Below, one piece after another: positions 24,219 through 33,120 of a stretch of 64,000 nt of DNA; position 1 is the stretch's first letter; every line of letters starts with the position of its first letter. Origin of the DNA: Kiritimatiellia bacterium (lineage in GTDB: Bacteria > Verrucomicrobiota > Kiritimatiellia > CAIVKH01); contig JANWZO010000005.1 of NCBI GenBank assembly GCA_025054615.1, forward strand, positions 1-64,000, in the 5' to 3' direction. The notes under the pieces are model-generated. The model searched no databases. It was not told the DNA's origin and saw nothing but the letters and a program-made list of their open reading frames with translations. Made by a program: the position numbers and the translations under genes.

Positions 24219-25520
24219 TCAAATTGCGCGTTGAATTCGGTCGCGTGCAGCAAGCGCGAGGTCAACAAGGGTTTCGATTGGCCGATCCGGTTCGAATGAC
24301 GATGCCCAGGCAATGGAATCTTCAGGGCCCACGCGCCCATGCGAGCCTCGGACTTTCGAGGTGTCGAGACTAATCGACAGGGGCGGCCATCCAAAGAACA
24401 GTTCACACGGGTCATAGCCGGGTTTGTTGTGAATGTCGATGTGGGTCGCGTAGTCCGGCGCTTCGTGCGGGTCCGTCCACCACGGGTAGGCGAACCAACT
24501 GCCGCGCCGTGCGATGAGGGTGAAATCGCCTGCGTTCGGGTGGTCGATGCCGAACTCCCTGCGCGTCGGCCCCTCAAGGAGCTGGTCAAGGTCCGGGAGG
24601 CTGGCGAGCGACGAACGCGCGGCTTCGCGGATCTTTTCATCGCGGCAAAACACGTGGGCGACTTCGTGATCGACAACGGCGAAGGCGGGACTGTTGAAGA
24701 AATCCGGATAGGCCATGCCCCTGACGCGTCGGGTCCAGAACAGTCCAGCTTCGCGCAGCACGCGGTTGGGAAACATCGCCGGGCGTGAGACGGCGCCGAT
24801 CGAATAATCGCCGAACACGAGCCAGTCGTATCCGTTCGCCTCGGCCGCGGCGAGGATTTCCTTTATCAGGCGGCTCAACACCTCACGTGCGCGGGCGGCT
24901 TCGGGGCTTGTCGGGCCTCGCCGCTGGAGGTCGTAATCCAGATGGGGGAGATAGGCGAGCAGCAGATCGGGCGCGAACGACGGATCGGCCATCACCGCGC
25001 ATACAGCCTCGGCAATCCATTCGCTGGATTTGCGCGAAGCGAGCGGTCCCCAGTAATGCATCAGGTTGAACGGTCGGCCCAGCATTTTGCATAGCCGCTC
25101 ATAGAGGTCAGGCGGTTGCGAATAGCAGTCCTGGATCATGCCGCCGTTATGTTTGTGGATGGGCCGCGGCGAGAGCACGAGGTCGACGGATTCGCCTAAG
25201 CTTTGTTGCCAGAACATCATGCCCACGCGTTTGCCGCGCGCCCGGAAAGCCTCCCAGATCCGCGCGCCCTTCACCAGCGAGGCCGACTGCTCCCAGAACA
25301 GAACTTTCTTCAGATCAGGGAACCAGAGCCCGTTGCCCACCATGCCGTGGCGTGTTGGCAGGCTTGCTGTTCGAAACGTCGCCTGGGCCGTGCAGGTGAC
25401 CGCTGGAAAAACCGGCCGAGCCTCCCGAAACCGAACCCCGGAAATCTGGATTTGGATGGCTTGTGTCCACCCGAGAGCTGCGCAGTCGAGAATAAGAAGT
25501 CTGGGCCGTGCGGCGGTCAC
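24219..25520 (-). CDS. EboF-like type I phosphodiesterase / nucleotide pyrophosphatase
   Basis: A 433-residue member of the alkaline-phosphatase superfamily (NPP type). The N-terminal metal aspartate is in LLILDCAALGW, and the nucleophile threonine lies in PAVTCTAQATFRTASLPTRHG. Further metal ligands are in YLPHLDYDLQRRG, FGDYS and a late histidine motif around KVRGSHGR. Similar enzymes occur in ebo clusters as EboF, which are linked to moving a prenylated or phosphorylated metabolite out of the cytoplasm. The GTG start at 25520 overlaps the upstream regulator's stop by four bases. EboD and EboE relatives are 5 kb away. Confidence 0.8.
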   Translation of the reverse strand: MTAARPRLLILDCAALGWTQAIQIQISGVRFREARPVFPAVTCTAQATFRTASLPTRHGMVGNGLWFPDLKKVLFWEQSASLVKGARIWEAFRARGKRVGMMFWQQSLGESVDLVLSPRPIHKHNGGMIQDCYSQPPDLYERLCKMLGRPFNLMHYWGPLASRKSSEWIAEAVCAVMADPSFAPDLLLAYLPHLDYDLQRRGPTSPEAARAREVLSRLIKEILAAAEANGYDWLVFGDYSIGAVSRPAMFPNRVLREAGLFWTRRVRGMAYPDFFNSPAFAVVDHEVAHVFCRDEKIREAARSSLASLPDLDQLLEGPTRREFGIDHPNAGDFTLIARRGSWFAYPWWTDPHEAPDYATHIDIHNKPGYDPCELFFGWPPLSISLDTSKVRGSHGRVGPEDSIAWASSFEPDRPIETLVDLALAARDRIQRAI

Positions 25521-26875
25521 GTGTTCTCCGGAAGTTTCCGGTACAGCGTGGCCAGGCTGATTTGGAGCGCTTTCGCGGTCTTTTCCTTATCACCGCCGTG
25601 CGTTTTGAGCGCATGCAACAGAAATTCCCGCTCTTTCGCACGGAGATACTGACGCAGCGACTGCCCTGAGATCCCGATCGATTCTTCAGCCGCGGGTCTC
25701 GCGGCGGCGGACTCGCGGATCCGGGACGGAAAGTCTTCCAATCGGATGCTTTCGCCGCTGGCGAAGGCCAGGGCATGGCGAACGGAATTCTGCAGCTCTC
25801 GCACGTTTCCGGGCCAATGGTACCGCTCGAGCGCGCGTTCTGCCTCCGGATCGATCACGGGCATTTTTTCACGATTGCGAAGTTCCATGCGGATGAAATG
25901 GCGTACGAGGGGCAGGATGTCCTCTCGCCTCTCGCGCAGCGGGGGCATTTCGATGGGGATCACGCTCAGCCGATAGTACAAATCCTCCCGAAACGCCTGT
26001 TTCTCGATCAGCCGCTCGAGTTTGTCATTGGTTGCGGCAATCACGCGGACGTCCACCGCCACCGATTCATTGCTGCCCACCTTTCGAACTTTTCGATCCT
26101 GCAGGACCCTAAGCAGCTTGGCTTGAATGGAGAGGGGCATCGCCCCGATTTCGTCGAGAAAAATGGTTCCCCCGTTCGCCGCCTCGAAAAGCCCCTCCTT
26201 GGTCGACGTGGCCCCGGTGAACGCGCCCTTGACGTGCCCGAACATCTCGGACTCCAGAAGTGGTTCGGGCAGAGCCGCGCAATTGATCGGGATAAATTTG
26301 TTGCCGCGGCGCGCGCTGTGGGCGTGGATCGCCGTGGCGACGAGCTCCTTGCCGGTCCCGCTTTCACCGGTGATCAACACGGTGGTGTCGGTGCGCGCCA
26401 CCCGCCCGATGATTTCGCAGATGCGCCGCATCTGCGGGCTTTCCGCGATAATGTTCTCGAACTGATAGCGTGCGCCGAGCTGCTGCCGCAGTTCGTCATT
26501 TTCGGTGCGAATGCGCGCATACTCGAGGGCGCGTTGGACCGTCAGCATCAATTCGTCTACCTTGAAGGGTTTAGTCACGTAGTCAAAGGCGCCTTCCTTC
26601 ATCGCCTGAACGGCCGTTTCAATTGAGCCGTAGGCCGTGAGCATGATCACGGCCATCTGCGGCCGTTCCCGCCGAACGATCCGCAACAATTCAAGGCCGT
26701 CGATGGGCGACATCCGAATATCCGTCACCATCAGGTCAAACGGTTCACACAGAAGAATCTCTCGGGCCTTTTCCCCGCCCCGCACCGCCACGGGATCGTG
26801 GCCAGCCGACTTCATGAGCGTACTCAAAACGCTCAAGATGCTCGGCTCATCGTCAACGAGCAAAATTCGTGCCAT
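25517..26875 (-). CDS. NtrC-family sigma54-dependent response regulator
   Basis: A 452-residue activator of RpoN promoters. Receiver domain: residues 1-120, acidic pocket Asp8/Asp9 and phospho-acceptor Asp52 in VTDIRM. AAA+ domain: 140-375, Walker A GESGTGKE, sigma54-contact loop GAFTGA, Walker B GGTIFLDEIG. C-terminal Fis-type helix-turn-helix: 420-450 (GDKEKTAKALQISLATLYRKL). Downstream in the operon is the EboF-like gene, start coupled. Upstream is a histidine kinase that lacks its ATPase domain. Confidence 0.95.
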   Translation of the reverse strand: MARILLVDDEPSILSVLSTLMKSAGHDPVAVRGGEKAREILLCEPFDLMVTDIRMSPIDGLELLRIVRRERPQMAVIMLTAYGSIETAVQAMKEGAFDYVTKPFKVDELMLTVQRALEYARIRTENDELRQQLGARYQFENIIAESPQMRRICEIIGRVARTDTTVLITGESGTGKELVATAIHAHSARRGNKFIPINCAALPEPLLESEMFGHVKGAFTGATSTKEGLFEAANGGTIFLDEIGAMPLSIQAKLLRVLQDRKVRKVGSNESVAVDVRVIAATNDKLERLIEKQAFREDLYYRLSVIPIEMPPLRERREDILPLVRHFIRMELRNREKMPVIDPEAERALERYHWPGNVRELQNSVRHALAFASGESIRLEDFPSRIRESAAARPAAEESIGISGQSLRQYLRAKEREFLLHALKTHGGDKEKTAKALQISLATLYRKLPENT

Positions 26876-26900
26876 TATCGCCCACCCTCAGATGAGCAAT

Positions 26901-26930
26901 TTAATGTGCGTATCTGTCAGCGTTTGTCAA
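26901..26930 (-). promoter_or_regulatory. possible internal promoter of the response regulator
   Basis: On the minus strand TTGACA (26925-26930) is followed after 18 bases by CATTAA (26901-26906), about 25 bases before the regulator start. It would let the regulator and EboF-like gene be expressed without the kinase. The -10 match is weak. Confidence 0.35.
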
Positions 26931-26984
26931 TTTCTCAATTATTCAAATTCGCATTGGACCTCGCGCAGGGCCGGGGTTAGGGCG

Positions 26985-27857
26985 TCATTTCTGCACGCTC
27001 GGGGCGTCAAGGCGGACTTTAGCATGGTTGTCACGCACATCCGCCTTGGTCAACAATTCGGATACCAAATTTTCCAGCCGGGCCGACTGTTCAACGATGG
27101 ACCGGCACAATAAGGCGAACTCCCGTTCGAGCAGGCGACCGCTTATCAGATCACCATCTTGGACCCGCTCTTGGAGGAGGGAGAGCAACTGGGCCGACCC
27201 TGAGATGGCGGTCAACGGATTTCGAATGTCATGGGCCAACTGATTCGCGAGGCTGGAAATTATGCGGTTCTGCGTTTGTCGGAATTCCTCTTCCATTGCG
27301 GCAACCACGTCCGAGATATCGGTCAGCAGGACGAGTCGGAAAACCCGATCGCTCGCGTAAAGGGTTTGCAGCTCGAATATTACGCTGATAATCCGACCAT
27401 CCGGACGGGCAATTTTTCTGAACAGTCGGCACGTCTCCTGATCGCCTTCGCCGTTGGAAGTCAGTAGATTAGATATCGAGGACTCCGGAGAGAGGTTCGC
27501 AGACGCATCGGAGAGCCCCAGTAAAGCACGAGCTTTCTCGTTGAGCACGACGACGCGGCCCTTGGCTTCGAGCAATATGGCCGCGCATGGCAGGAATCGG
27601 ACCGTTTGCTCGAGTTTCAATTCGGCGCTGCGTTTTCGAACGCCCGCCAAAGATCCAATCGCAAGAGTTCCACCCGCCAAGCCGGCGTGGAGCAATGGAT
27701 TATTCGAGGGGAGATCCATGCAGACCATGCATATGAGGGAGGAGAAAGCTGCGATACCGAAAATAACTGTGGCGAGTTGCGCGACGTTTCTGCGTCTTTT
27801 TCGGGACTTCACAGCGTCAGTTATCGCCAACACGGTCAGTCTTCCTAGGCGATCCAT
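26985..27857 (-). CDS. membrane sensor histidine kinase lacking the ATPase domain
   Basis: A 290-residue NtrB/PilS-like protein. There are two predicted membrane helices (about 28-48 and 54-72). A PAS-type sensor follows (about 80-190: FLPCAAILLEAKGRVVVLNEKARALLG). A complete HisKA dimerisation helix pair carries the phospho-accepting His209 in LAHDIRNPLTAI. The protein then ends at residue 290, just past HisKA, with no HATPase_c N-, G1- or G2-box. Only 109 bases separate it from the next gene, so the ATPase domain is not nearby in another frame. It cannot autophosphorylate by itself. Confidence 0.85.
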   Translation of the reverse strand: MDRLGRLTVLAITDAVKSRKRRRNVAQLATVIFGIAAFSSLICMVCMDLPSNNPLLHAGLAGGTLAIGSLAGVRKRSAELKLEQTVRFLPCAAILLEAKGRVVVLNEKARALLGLSDASANLSPESSISNLLTSNGEGDQETCRLFRKIARPDGRIISVIFELQTLYASDRVFRLVLLTDISDVVAAMEEEFRQTQNRIISSLANQLAHDIRNPLTAISGSAQLLSLLQERVQDGDLISGRLLEREFALLCRSIVEQSARLENLVSELLTKADVRDNHAKVRLDAPSVQK

Positions 27858-27958: not shown

Positions 27959-29341
27959 TCAGCGGAGCAGTCGCTCATAGCAGGTCGCGAGCCGCCGTTT
28001 CTCGCGGCGCGCAAACCGCATGCCGACCTCGATGCGAGCTGTCATAAGGCCGAAATTGAGGCCCGCCGGTGCGCCCTCGTGCGTTTTCTTGCGGATTGCC
28101 TCAACGGGATCGACGGCGGCCAGCTCGTGCAGATGCTCTTTGACGTGGTGATACGCGTCACGGAAGGGCATTCCGGACGCCACCAGCTCCAAGGCTCGAT
28201 CCGTGGCAAAAACCTCAGGGGTAAATCCTCGTAATAACGCCTCGCGATTCGCTCGCAGACCTTCGACCAATCCGCGCAGGATACGCAGACAGTCGAGTGT
28301 CTCGGACAACCCTACCAAGAAGGGCTCTTTTGTCTCCTGCAGGTCCCGATTGTAGCCAGAGGGCAATCCGCGCAGGAGATCAAAAACGCTAGATGCATGG
28401 GCGCGAACGCGTGCTGCCTTGGCGCGGATCAGTTCGAGGACATCCGGATTCCGCTTTTGCGGCATGATGCTGCTGCCAGTTGTATAACCCTCGGGGAGAG
28501 AGAAATACGAAAACTCGGGCATCGTAAACAGAATCAAGTCCGAGGCGAGGCGGGAAAGCACAAGCATGATCTGGCTGGCGCCATCGAGCAGCAGCGATTC
28601 AATCCGCCCTCGCGACTGATTGGCATAGAGGACGTTGTGCGCCGGGGCTTCGAATCCGAGCAGGCGCGCGACCAGCGACCGATCGAGCTGCAACGGGACG
28701 CCGTATCCGGCTGCAGAACCCAAAGGCGATCGGTTGTTCAAGCGATACAGCGCGAGTAGCAGCTCCAGGCAATCGGAGAGCTCTTCCGACCAGGCCGTGG
28801 CCCAGACCGCAACTGACGACGGCATGCCCGGCTGCATGTGCGTACGGCCTACCATCGGCCAATCGACATGGCGCCGGCCGAAGCGAAGCAGAGCCCGGGC
28901 CAGTTCGCCGCAGGATTCAAGCAAGAGCAGGAGCTGGTCTCGCCCATAAATTCGCAGGTCAAGCGCCACTTGGTCATTGCGGCTTCGCGCCGTGTGGACC
29001 CGTTTGCCCAGATCGCCCAGTCTGCGGGTCAATTCACGTTCCACGGCGAGGTGAACGTCTTGGTCTTCCAGCGTGATCTGGAACGCGCCGTCTCGCGCCG
29101 CTTTGATGATTCGGGCCAGTTCGCGCCGCACCTGGGCCGCCTGCTCCGCCGTCAGGATGGGCGGCCGGACCGGCAGGCGGCTCAACATCGTCACATGGGC
29201 AGCGGTTCCGAGACAGTCCGCCTCCACAAGGCTTCGATCCAATTCAACATCCTTTCCCGCGGTAAACGCGAGGACTTCGGAGTTGATCGCTCCCACGGTC
29301 GTGGACTTCAAGGGCGGCTTATCGGCGCGCGAGGATTTCAT
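27959..29341 (-). CDS. argH: argininosuccinate lyase
   Basis: Splits argininosuccinate into arginine and fumarate. The 460 residues match the family throughout: TARSRNDQ at ~117, GRTHMQPG with the active-site histidine, and the signature GSSIMPQKRNPD whose serine is the catalytic base. Partner of ArgG at 9803. Transcribed on its own, 61 bases downstream of the HAD gene. Confidence 0.96.
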   Translation of the reverse strand: MKSSRADKPPLKSTTVGAINSEVLAFTAGKDVELDRSLVEADCLGTAAHVTMLSRLPVRPPILTAEQAAQVRRELARIIKAARDGAFQITLEDQDVHLAVERELTRRLGDLGKRVHTARSRNDQVALDLRIYGRDQLLLLLESCGELARALLRFGRRHVDWPMVGRTHMQPGMPSSVAVWATAWSEELSDCLELLLALYRLNNRSPLGSAAGYGVPLQLDRSLVARLLGFEAPAHNVLYANQSRGRIESLLLDGASQIMLVLSRLASDLILFTMPEFSYFSLPEGYTTGSSIMPQKRNPDVLELIRAKAARVRAHASSVFDLLRGLPSGYNRDLQETKEPFLVGLSETLDCLRILRGLVEGLRANREALLRGFTPEVFATDRALELVASGMPFRDAYHHVKEHLHELAAVDPVEAIRKKTHEGAPAGLNFGLMTARIEVGMRFARREKRRLATCYERLLR

Positions 29342-30074: not shown

Positions 30075-30736
30075 CGAATCCCCCAGACAAGGACATGGCG
30101 GTCGCTCGGAGTTTCAACGTGAAGGCGGGCCAATCCGGCCGCGCGCAGATGTTCGCGGATTTCATTCGGCGTGAAAGCCGCGCAGAGCGAGTGGAAGAAG
30201 TCCTCTTTGAGCACGGCCGGCTCGCCTTGTGTGTAGAGGTCGGTCAGCCGTCGTGCCTCTTCTCCCGAATCAGGACGCCGCAGGTCGGCGATGAACACCA
30301 CCGTACCGGGTTGCGCCCAGCGAGCGATGTAACCCCACAGCATTAGGGGGTCATGAAGGTGATGCAACAGGCTGTTGCTCAGAATGACCCGGTAGGGCGG
30401 GTAAGGCGGCCGCCAATCCGGCAGGCGGCCGAGGTGAAGCCGGACGCGTTCTCCGACCTTCGGGAACCGCTCGCGGCAGATTGATGACGCCGCAATCATT
30501 GCAGGCGAGCCGTCAACGCCGTCGATGGTCCAGCCGGGATACGCGTCGGCAAATCGAAGCGCTACATCGCCGGGTCCGCACCCAAGGTCGAGCACGCGCG
30601 CGAACTCTGGCGCATCCGGAAATCGCTCGCGGAAGAGTTCGACCAGTCGGCTGTGCGGCGCCTCGAAATAGGCTCGGGCATAGGCCTCAGCCTGGTCATG
30701 GCGCTCCATCAGTTCCGGTTCGAGGATTCGCTGCAT
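30071..30736 (-). CDS. SAM-dependent methyltransferase
   Basis: A 221-residue class I methyltransferase. The SAM-binding motif VLDLGCGPGDVAL spans about residues 48-60, the acidic end of strand 2 is IDGVDGS, and post-motif LSNSLLHHLHDP marks the active-site side. Similar to small-molecule methyltransferases; no substrate can be assigned. It overlaps the HAD gene by four bases, and the divergent EboD gene starts 57 bases away. Confidence 0.85.
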   Translation of the reverse strand: MQRILEPELMERHDQAEAYARAYFEAPHSRLVELFRERFPDAPEFARVLDLGCGPGDVALRFADAYPGWTIDGVDGSPAMIAASSICRERFPKVGERVRLHLGRLPDWRPPYPPYRVILSNSLLHHLHDPLMLWGYIARWAQPGTVVFIADLRRPDSGEEARRLTDLYTQGEPAVLKEDFFHSLCAAFTPNEIREHLRAAGLARLHVETPSDRHVLVWGIR

Positions 30737-30793
30737 GTGTCGCTCGCTGGCATGAATGGCGTTGCCATGTTATCGTTCGCAGCATTCATCGCA

Positions 30794-31957
30794 ATGACGG
30801 ACACGATCCTCCAGCGAATCAGCGTGCCGTTCGAATATCCGGTTGTCTTCACTCGATCGGTTTTTTCGCCGTCGAATCCGGTGCTGCAGAAGACGGTTTG
30901 CCAAAAGGAGCCCTCGCGTCGACACCGGATACTGGCCGTGGTGGATGCCGGCGTTGCGAGGGCGAGGCCAGGCCTCATAGAGGAAATTCAGGGCTATGCG
31001 AGCGCATATTCGGAGCGACTTGAGCTGGTCCATCCGCCTCGCGTCGTGACGGGCGGAGAGGCGGCGAAGAACGATGTCATGGGGTTGGCGGCGCTAATCA
31101 ACGCGATGGTCGAGCGACGGCTCTGCCGCCAGTCCTTCGTCGTGGTGGTCGGAGGCGGGGCGGTCCTGGATGCTGTCGGTTTCGCCGCCGCGCTCGTGCA
31201 CCGGGGGCTTCGATTGATTCGCATCCCTACGACCGTCCTTGCCCAGTGCGACAGTGGCGTTGGGGTCAAGAACGCCATCAATCTGAATGGCGTCAAAAAC
31301 CTGGTGGGCACCTTCGCGCCGCCGTTTGCGGTGGTCAATGATTTCGATTTTTTGCGCACGCTGCCTGAGGGCGCCTGGACCGATGGCATCGCAGAGGCCT
31401 TCAAGGTCGCGATCATCAAGGACCGCGTATTTTTTGACTGGTTGACATCCCACGCCTCGGACCTGCGCGCTCGCGACGAGCAAGCAATGGAGTATCTGAT
31501 TCGACGCTGCGCGGAGCTGCACTTGGAGCACATCCGCTCACACGGAGACCCCTTTGAATTTGGGTCCGCAAAGCCGCTGGATTTCGGTCACTGGTCGGCG
31601 CACCGCCTTGAGGCCATGTCGAATTATCGCATCAGCCACGGGCGGGCGGTGGCGATCGGACTCGCGCTGGACGCCGCGTATGCCGTCGCCAAAGGCTGGT
31701 TGTCACCCGCCGATTTTGACCGGCTTTACCTCGGCCTCGCGCAGGCCGGCTTTGAGCTCTGGCACGAGCTGCTGGAGAAAAAGAGGGACGGTGAACTCGA
31801 CCTAATGCGGGGCTTGCAGGAGTTCCAGGAACATCTGGGCGGAGACCTGTCGTTGACCATGCCGGACGGCATCGGCGCCGCGCGCGAGGTCTTCGAAATG
31901 GATCCCGCCCTCATTGCCGCCTCCATCGCCGAGCTCAAACGGCGCGCGGGCCGATGA
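30794..31957 (+). CDS. eboD: EboD-type 3-dehydroquinate synthase homologue
   Basis: A 387-residue sugar-phosphate cyclase-family protein. The start QRISVPFEYPVVFTR is typical of EboD. The NAD loop is in VVGGGAVLDAVGF, and IPTTVLAQCDSGVGVKNAINLNGVKN is the substrate loop. The three metal ligands are kept: Glu in DGIAEAFKV, and His in FGHWSAHRLE and ISHGRAVA. Ebo pathways were described for metabolite traffic, for example the scytonemin precursor in cyanobacteria; the natural substrate is unknown. The ATG at 30794 is chosen from homology, since the frame is open to 30653. It overlaps eboE by four bases. Confidence 0.88.
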   Translation: MTDTILQRISVPFEYPVVFTRSVFSPSNPVLQKTVCQKEPSRRHRILAVVDAGVARARPGLIEEIQGYASAYSERLELVHPPRVVTGGEAAKNDVMGLAALINAMVERRLCRQSFVVVVGGGAVLDAVGFAAALVHRGLRLIRIPTTVLAQCDSGVGVKNAINLNGVKNLVGTFAPPFAVVNDFDFLRTLPEGAWTDGIAEAFKVAIIKDRVFFDWLTSHASDLRARDEQAMEYLIRRCAELHLEHIRSHGDPFEFGSAKPLDFGHWSAHRLEAMSNYRISHGRAVAIGLALDAAYAVAKGWLSPADFDRLYLGLAQAGFELWHELLEKKRDGELDLMRGLQEFQEHLGGDLSLTMPDGIGAAREVFEMDPALIAASIAELKRRAGR

Positions 31958-33120
31958 ATCGGTACGCGATGCGGCTGACCTACTGCCTGAATGTGCACCC
32001 CGGCGAAACGTGGGCCGACCAGTTTGCCGCCGTAGAACGATATGCGCTTCGCGTGCGTGACCGCGTTGCGCCTTGCAGTCCATTCGGACTCGGAATGCGC
32101 CTCAGTGCTCGGTCTGCCGTCGAGCTTGCCGAGCCACAGCTCCTCGAGGCGTTCCGTCGCTTTTTGCGCGAGAATGAGCTCGTGGTCGAAACGATCAACG
32201 CATTTCCGTATGGCGCATTTCATGGCGTTCGCGTCAAAGAGCAGGTGTATCGGCCGGATTGGCGGACGGAGGAGCGCGCGGAATTTACCCGAAACGCTGC
32301 GCGAATACTCGCTTCGCTTTTGCCGCCAGGCGCGCGCGGAAGCATTAGCACCGTGCCCGTCGGTTACGCGCCCGACTTCGCGGGCGAGGAGGACCGCCGG
32401 CTGGCGGCCCGCCGGCTTGTTGAACTGGCGCGATTCCTGGCTGACCTCGAGGATCGCAGCAGTGTCCGCGTGGGATTGGCGCTGGAGCCCGAACCTGGCT
32501 GTGTGCTGGAGACGTGCGAAGAGGCTATCGAGTTTCACCAGTTCTGCCGCGAGTGTGCTGGCGCGAATGCGGATCTGGTGTCGCGATATCTAGGGGTCTG
32601 CCTCGACACCTGCCACGCGGCGCTTGCGTTTGAATCGCCAGCCGATGCCTGGCTCCACTATGTACGGGCTGGCGTGCCGGTCATGAAGGTGCAGGTTAGT
32701 GCGGCCCTCGAAGTGGCAGGACCGCCGCCGACGGAGCTGGCGCGGTTCATCGAGCCCGTCTATTTACACCAGGTCCGAATGCTCCTTCGCGACGGGCGCC
32801 GAGCAGGCTGGCCGGATTTGCCCGAGGCCCTCGGATCGTGGCCTGAAGACGCCGAAATCGCGCGGATCCATTTCCACGTGCCTCTTCACTGGGGTGGCAG
32901 TGGAGCGCTGCGCACCACTCGCGGCACAATGGACGCCCGCTTTTGGAATCGGATCCGAAACTCGCCGGAAATTCAGGTTGAGGTCGAGACCTACACCTTT
33001 GAGGTCCTGCCCCCGGAGTTGCGTGAGGGGGGTGTGGTCGATAGCATCGCGCGCGAGCTGGCTTGGGCGCAGCGGTATCTGTCCGAGCGCACGGCGGACC
33101 ATGAGAATATCTCAATTTAA
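31954..33120 (+). CDS. eboE: EboE-type metabolite traffic protein (TIM barrel)
   Basis: A 388-residue sugar-phosphate isomerase/xylose-isomerase-like barrel. Recognisable EboE features are the opening LTYCLNVHPGETWADQF, ETINAFPYGAFHG, the metal-ligand-rich CLDTCHAALAFE and HFHVPLHWGG. It is translation-coupled to eboD. The UraD-like gene begins inside its last 20 bases. No signal peptide, so it should be cytoplasmic. The exact reaction is not established for the family. Confidence 0.88.
   Translation: MNRYAMRLTYCLNVHPGETWADQFAAVERYALRVRDRVAPCSPFGLGMRLSARSAVELAEPQLLEAFRRFLRENELVVETINAFPYGAFHGVRVKEQVYRPDWRTEERAEFTRNAARILASLLPPGARGSISTVPVGYAPDFAGEEDRRLAARRLVELARFLADLEDRSSVRVGLALEPEPGCVLETCEEAIEFHQFCRECAGANADLVSRYLGVCLDTCHAALAFESPADAWLHYVRAGVPVMKVQVSAALEVAGPPPTELARFIEPVYLHQVRMLLRDGRRAGWPDLPEALGSWPEDAEIARIHFHVPLHWGGSGALRTTRGTMDARFWNRIRNSPEIQVEVETYTFEVLPPELREGGVVDSIARELAWAQRYLSERTADHENISI

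Follow-up and report, generated by a model that had tools for sequence, protein, structure and literature searches.

A sensor gene whose product ends after the phospho-acceptor half of a histidine kinase raises the question of what such a protein can do to the response regulator encoded beside it. In the window (the whole stretch of DNA analysed, 64,000 nucleotides), the gene lay at 26985..27857 on the minus strand and encoded, as judged from the ORF, Pfam and AlphaFold2, a CA-less PilS-type sensor of 290 aa with TM, PAS and DHp parts and without HATPase. The HisKA/DHp helix pair (aa 182-283; 27009..27314, minus strand) was matched by PF00512 at aa 203-270 with an E-value of 2.9e-9, above the cut-off. 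The H-box HDIRNP contained His209 (codon 27231..27233, minus strand), with Asp210 at +1 and Asn213 at +4. No HATPase match was obtained in the 290-aa protein with Pfam. In the AlphaFold2 model, based on a 33-row alignment, the DHp hairpin was formed by helices 182-233 and 237-283 with pLDDT mostly above 90, residues 277-290 were of low confidence, and nothing followed. The result was in agreement with the earlier note, which had described a normal H-box and a HisKA helix pair followed by a stop. Of the two parts that make up a HisKA-type kinase, the DHp with its phospho-acceptor His209 was thus present and HATPase_c was absent. Because the ATP-binding domain is lacking, autokinase activity and phosphorylation of PilR are not expected.

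The PAS domain (aa 86-180; 27318..27602, minus strand) gave weak matches only in Pfam (E 0.06-0.1) and NCBIfam. Its fold was modelled confidently at about residues 91-180 with the same alignment, and the model resembled PAS and LOV-histidine-kinase structures in the structure comparison, as expected, which bore out the PAS region proposed earlier. The N-terminal transmembrane helix region (aa 23-47; 27717..27791, minus strand) was assigned from hydropathy, and its helix fell in a low-confidence part of the model. Two membrane helices had been claimed; one strong hydrophobic segment (28-46) was found in the hydropathy scan, but the second was below the threshold and the model was unconfident before residue 70. 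Furthermore, 6TM_PilS had no Pfam match in the window protein, nor in its genome (G000). The neighbour expected of a PilS was present, namely a PilR-like NtrC-family sigma-54 response regulator of 452 aa with the phospho-acceptor Asp52 (25517..26875, minus strand). A HATPase domain takes approximately 110 residues, whereas the intergenic gap (26876..26984) leaves 109 bases before the ATG of the regulator, which is itself complete. A hidden or frameshifted ATPase domain was rejected, as the earlier note had argued, because the gap is too short, HATPase is not matched, and the relatives end alike.

Upstream of the sensor lay argH (argininosuccinate lyase; 27959..29341, minus strand). On the other side, a type I phosphodiesterase/nucleotide pyrophosphatase gene at 24219-25520(-) shared 4 bases with the 3' end of the regulator gene; it also adjoined the regulator in G006 (72% identity) and was not found there in G004 and G007. 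Elsewhere in the window, a gene for a 3-dehydroquinate-synthase-like protein, 30653-31957(+), overlapped one for a xylose-isomerase-like TIM-barrel protein, 31954-33120(+), an arrangement that may resemble part of an ebo-type cluster.

The same truncation was looked for in relatives. The genus g5 (G004, G006 and G007) belongs to the same family (f1) as the window's genome, and the order argH, short sensor, regulator was the same in its three genomes, with all three sensors ending after the DHp. The earlier note had proposed this comparison beside the same NtrC-type gene, and its positive outcome removed the readings of an assembly gap and of a recent truncation; a gap in sequencing or assembly at the 3' end, which the note had named as the refuting case, was contradicted by the identical endings. 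In a single-sequence search with the window sensor alone, G006 was found at 5e-38 and G046 and G021 at about 1e-16 and 1e-15.

The front of the protein was less stable. The 6TM part was gone in the f1 sensors, whose branch in the tree was long; the PAS was also lost in G004, and no TM segment was predicted in G007. In genus g3 (G002 and G005), argH was directly followed by the regulator with no sensor gene between them. In pairwise codon comparison, the DHp of the f1 sensors gave pN of 0.26-0.45 vs pS of 0.64-0.80, at saturated synonymous sites, and the N-terminal part was far less constrained. Open sensor frames persisted in four genomes despite this saturated divergence; of 2000 copies evolved neutrally in simulation, none had an intact frame left at 0.8 changes per site. 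As judged from these comparisons, the DHp appears to be under purifying selection. The losses in G004 and G007 together with the retained DHp indicate that the sensor front erodes while the DHp is kept, and in the window's own lineage there are also signs of a decay that leads towards loss.

A profile search showed how far this architecture extends. CA-less orthologues were found in 38 of the 288 genomes of the class at E <= ~6e-51, in six families (f1, f15, f16, f17, f30 and f36), and full-length kinases were well separated in the same search (~1e-17 to 3e-24). The window copy belonged to the group with an E-value of 4.2e-74, obtained with a profile that already includes it. Outside the class but within the phylum, CA-less members also occurred in four genomes (G365, G395, G413 and G436). 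Such recurrence in 38 and four genomes is more than chance. Most members consisted of the 6TM front, PAS and HisKA and ended right after the DHp; the extracted members, among which L122 is cut by a contig end, stopped 75-116 residues past the His, with no room for a CA domain. HATPase was absent from every orthologue examined. Moreover, with a threshold of E <= 1e-22 the profile search of the phylum found no full-length member of the group, although other long-frame 6TM kinases exist. By these data the truncation is old and conserved, neither recent nor an artefact.

The gene context was similarly regular. The usual order was pilC, sensor, PilR-like regulator, and among 37 loci the sensor adjoined pilC in 34 and a regulator in 31, counted within 1.5 kb flanks, so that an absent neighbour may lie farther away. 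Both were present in 30 loci, pilC only in four, the regulator only in one and neither in two; seven loci come from the four genomes of other classes, and some are paralogues. The Pfam score for 6TM_PilS was over the cut-off of 27 in L095, at 28.1, and in several other members, and just below it in some. These matches, together with the pilC and regulator context, identify the group as a branch of PilS without CA. The order pilC, sensor, argH in f15 and f17 explains why the window sensor stands beside argH and supports orthology. The window sensor is a shortened member of this branch that has lost most of the 6TM part. The earlier note did not recognise this group or its tie to pilC and a PilR-like regulator.

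Several further searches were made. PF25323 matches in G416, G444 and G071 were set aside as other architectures, the scan of viral contigs found nothing, and a genome-contig scan with one protein from G046 matched only G046 itself. In addition, a third 6TM-PAS paralogue in G365 (contig C170, L236) had a degenerate H-box, which may represent one more stage in the change from a kinase to a pure sensor.

The H-box residues were compared in a tree of 41 group members. The acid at +1 had changed at least four times, to Q in f16 and in G046, to R in G150, and to S and V in other classes. Asp was kept in the window's lineage (HDIRN), and Glu or Asp in f15, f30 and f36. The His was kept in 39 of 41 and replaced twice, by Q in G107 and by Y in G055, whose sensor is also short at its N-terminus. 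The +4 residue was N or T in all 41 members with a single change in the tree. As a control, 16 of 16 full-length kinases from related genomes had E or D at +1, and their +4 was T, N or S. In HisKA kinases, mutagenesis has shown that the +1 acid is needed for kinase activity only and the +4 T/N for phosphatase activity only (PMC3510030). Likewise, the N323A change in the phosphatase motif of Pseudomonas aeruginosa PilS prevented the deactivation of phospho-PilR (PMC11960060). By its Asn213, the window copy has the Thr/Asn that marks a HisKA-type phosphatase at +4. The pattern in the group fits a putative loss of kinase activity with retention of phosphatase activity.

The partner regulator was conserved at its key positions. 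Asp52, Lys102 and Thr80 were kept in 53 of 53 sequences, which indicates that the regulator is still selected for phosphorylation. Six T2SSF matches, from three pilC-type genes, show that the genome of the window encodes a pilus or secretion apparatus. Most genomes of the class had the regulator and lacked PilS. In many of them, a PilR-like regulator with an intact receiver stood beside pilB/pilC or pilin genes with no adjoining sensor gene. An exact sigma-54 promoter pattern (TGGCAC-N5-TTGCT) at 26859-26874(-) was rejected as coincidental, since the codons for MARILL at the start of the regulator make it up; the pattern was not enriched over the control (57 vs 68).

A stand-alone CA protein was searched for with PF02518 in ten genomes, six of which gave full lists. 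No conserved stand-alone HATPase partner, as a split kinase needs, occurred in these six, and G045 had no HATPase in any frame shorter than 398 aa. The 157-160-aa HATPase ORFs of f1 were rejected as partners; the G000 member stands beside STAS genes, and from it the set was judged RsbW-like. The 198-aa frame of G081 was also rejected, as it lies beside a NuoE-like gene in a hydrogenase-type context. In G007, a 171-aa HATPase frame directly preceded another regulator gene, and a 153-aa frame was also present.

We lean slightly towards the reading that the CA-less PilS-type sensor acts on the adjoining PilR-like regulator as a signal-gated phosphatase, not as a kinase. The window sensor could presumably neither bind ATP nor phosphorylate itself. 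A signal would reach the dimeric DHp hairpin through the membrane/PAS part. The hairpin, we infer, docks on the receiver domain of the regulator; there the +4 Asn/Thr (Asn213) would speed the loss of phosphate from Asp52 and turn the regulator off. The phosphate would come from elsewhere, from another kinase or a small phosphodonor. The wider proposal is more tentative, falling somewhat short of an even chance: a phylum-wide system in which the pilus sensor would permanently lack kinase activity and serve only as a signal-gated phosphatase, with its regulator phosphorylated by another source. Two observations in the sequences count against a phosphatase. The kinase-only +1 residue was not lost universally, and the retention of the His in nearly all members exceeds what dephosphorylation alone would strictly require. 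The weaker phosphatase activity of the NtrB and EnvZ DHp without CA (PMC3510030) and the lack of any PilS in most class genomes that have the regulator also speak against it.

The kept His, and the acid kept in the window's family, are what a phosphotransfer module would show, in which His209 receives phosphate in trans, from another full-length kinase or from a distinct ATPase protein, and the DHp then hands it to the regulator; split kinases and Spo0B/ChpT-type relays would be the models for this. CheA3/CheA4 are an example of split kinases that work (PMC3591291), and a full-length kinase could possibly act in trans on the DHp. However, the gene was retained although the +1 acid, needed for His phosphorylation, and even the His itself were lost repeatedly, and a conserved CA partner was missing, so this explanation is rather unlikely. 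Retention of the gene after loss of the His, with the DHp as the best conserved part of the family, would also suit a non-catalytic holder, in which the DHp dimer keeps the regulator sequestered at the membrane or prevents it from oligomerising until a signal is received; this is unlikely, since by itself it does not account for the invariant +4 N/T and the invariant phosphorylation site of the regulator. Among the three roles that the earlier note had suggested, the class-wide H-box residues favour a phosphatase over a phosphate acceptor, and decay is partly alive in the window's family. There, the eroded fronts, the long branch and the missing sensors of g3 agree with a remnant whose function is being lost, but the open frames at saturated divergence, the neutral simulations and the selection on the DHp make this quite unlikely. 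An ATPase domain concealed by an assembly or sequencing error has a negligible chance; it was refuted for the group by independent genomes in which the sensors end alike, one of them the single-contig G081, and by the f30 sensors, whose 3' end overlaps the regulator start.

Phosphorylation and dephosphorylation are combined in many sensor kinases and are difficult to study apart. In the present lineage the kinase half has been dropped in nature, with the sensor part, the regulator and the residue for phosphatase action retained, and it offers a ready test of whether signal-gated dephosphorylation by itself can sustain a two-component system. It also raises the question of where the PilR-like regulators of this class obtain their phosphate, as most genomes have the regulator without PilS.

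Compared with PilS, the sensor kinase of type IV pili, the group shares 6TM_PilS, PAS, HisKA and the adjoining pilC and PilR-like NtrC-family regulator, but it has no HATPase in the orthologues examined, and the window copy also lacks most of the 6TM part. CA-less HisKA proteins are already known as a class; the CA-less PilS group is apparently undescribed, as no description was found in the open-licence papers searched, which is not proof of novelty. Archaeal HisKA proteins without HATPase, listed in P2CS as 'possible incomplete histidine kinase', have been described as non-enzymatic kinase-like proteins (PMC5847659). They are alike in that a sensor domain is joined to a HisKA in which the His is conserved, and an ATPase is lacking, but they are a mixed set, whereas here one bacterial orthologous group has a recurring gene context, a partner regulator and a residue pattern. 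Split kinases such as CheA3/CheA4 also have the phosphoacceptor part apart from the ATP-binding part (PMC3591291); they are CheA-type, whereas CA-less PilS is HisKA-type and no partner ATPase protein was found for it. The DHp of NtrB or EnvZ in isolation, which also has no CA and has an NtrC- or OmpR-type regulator as its target, was sufficient for phosphatase activity, weaker than with the CA (PMC3510030). Those proteins were laboratory constructs, whereas in CA-less PilS the same cut was made by evolution.
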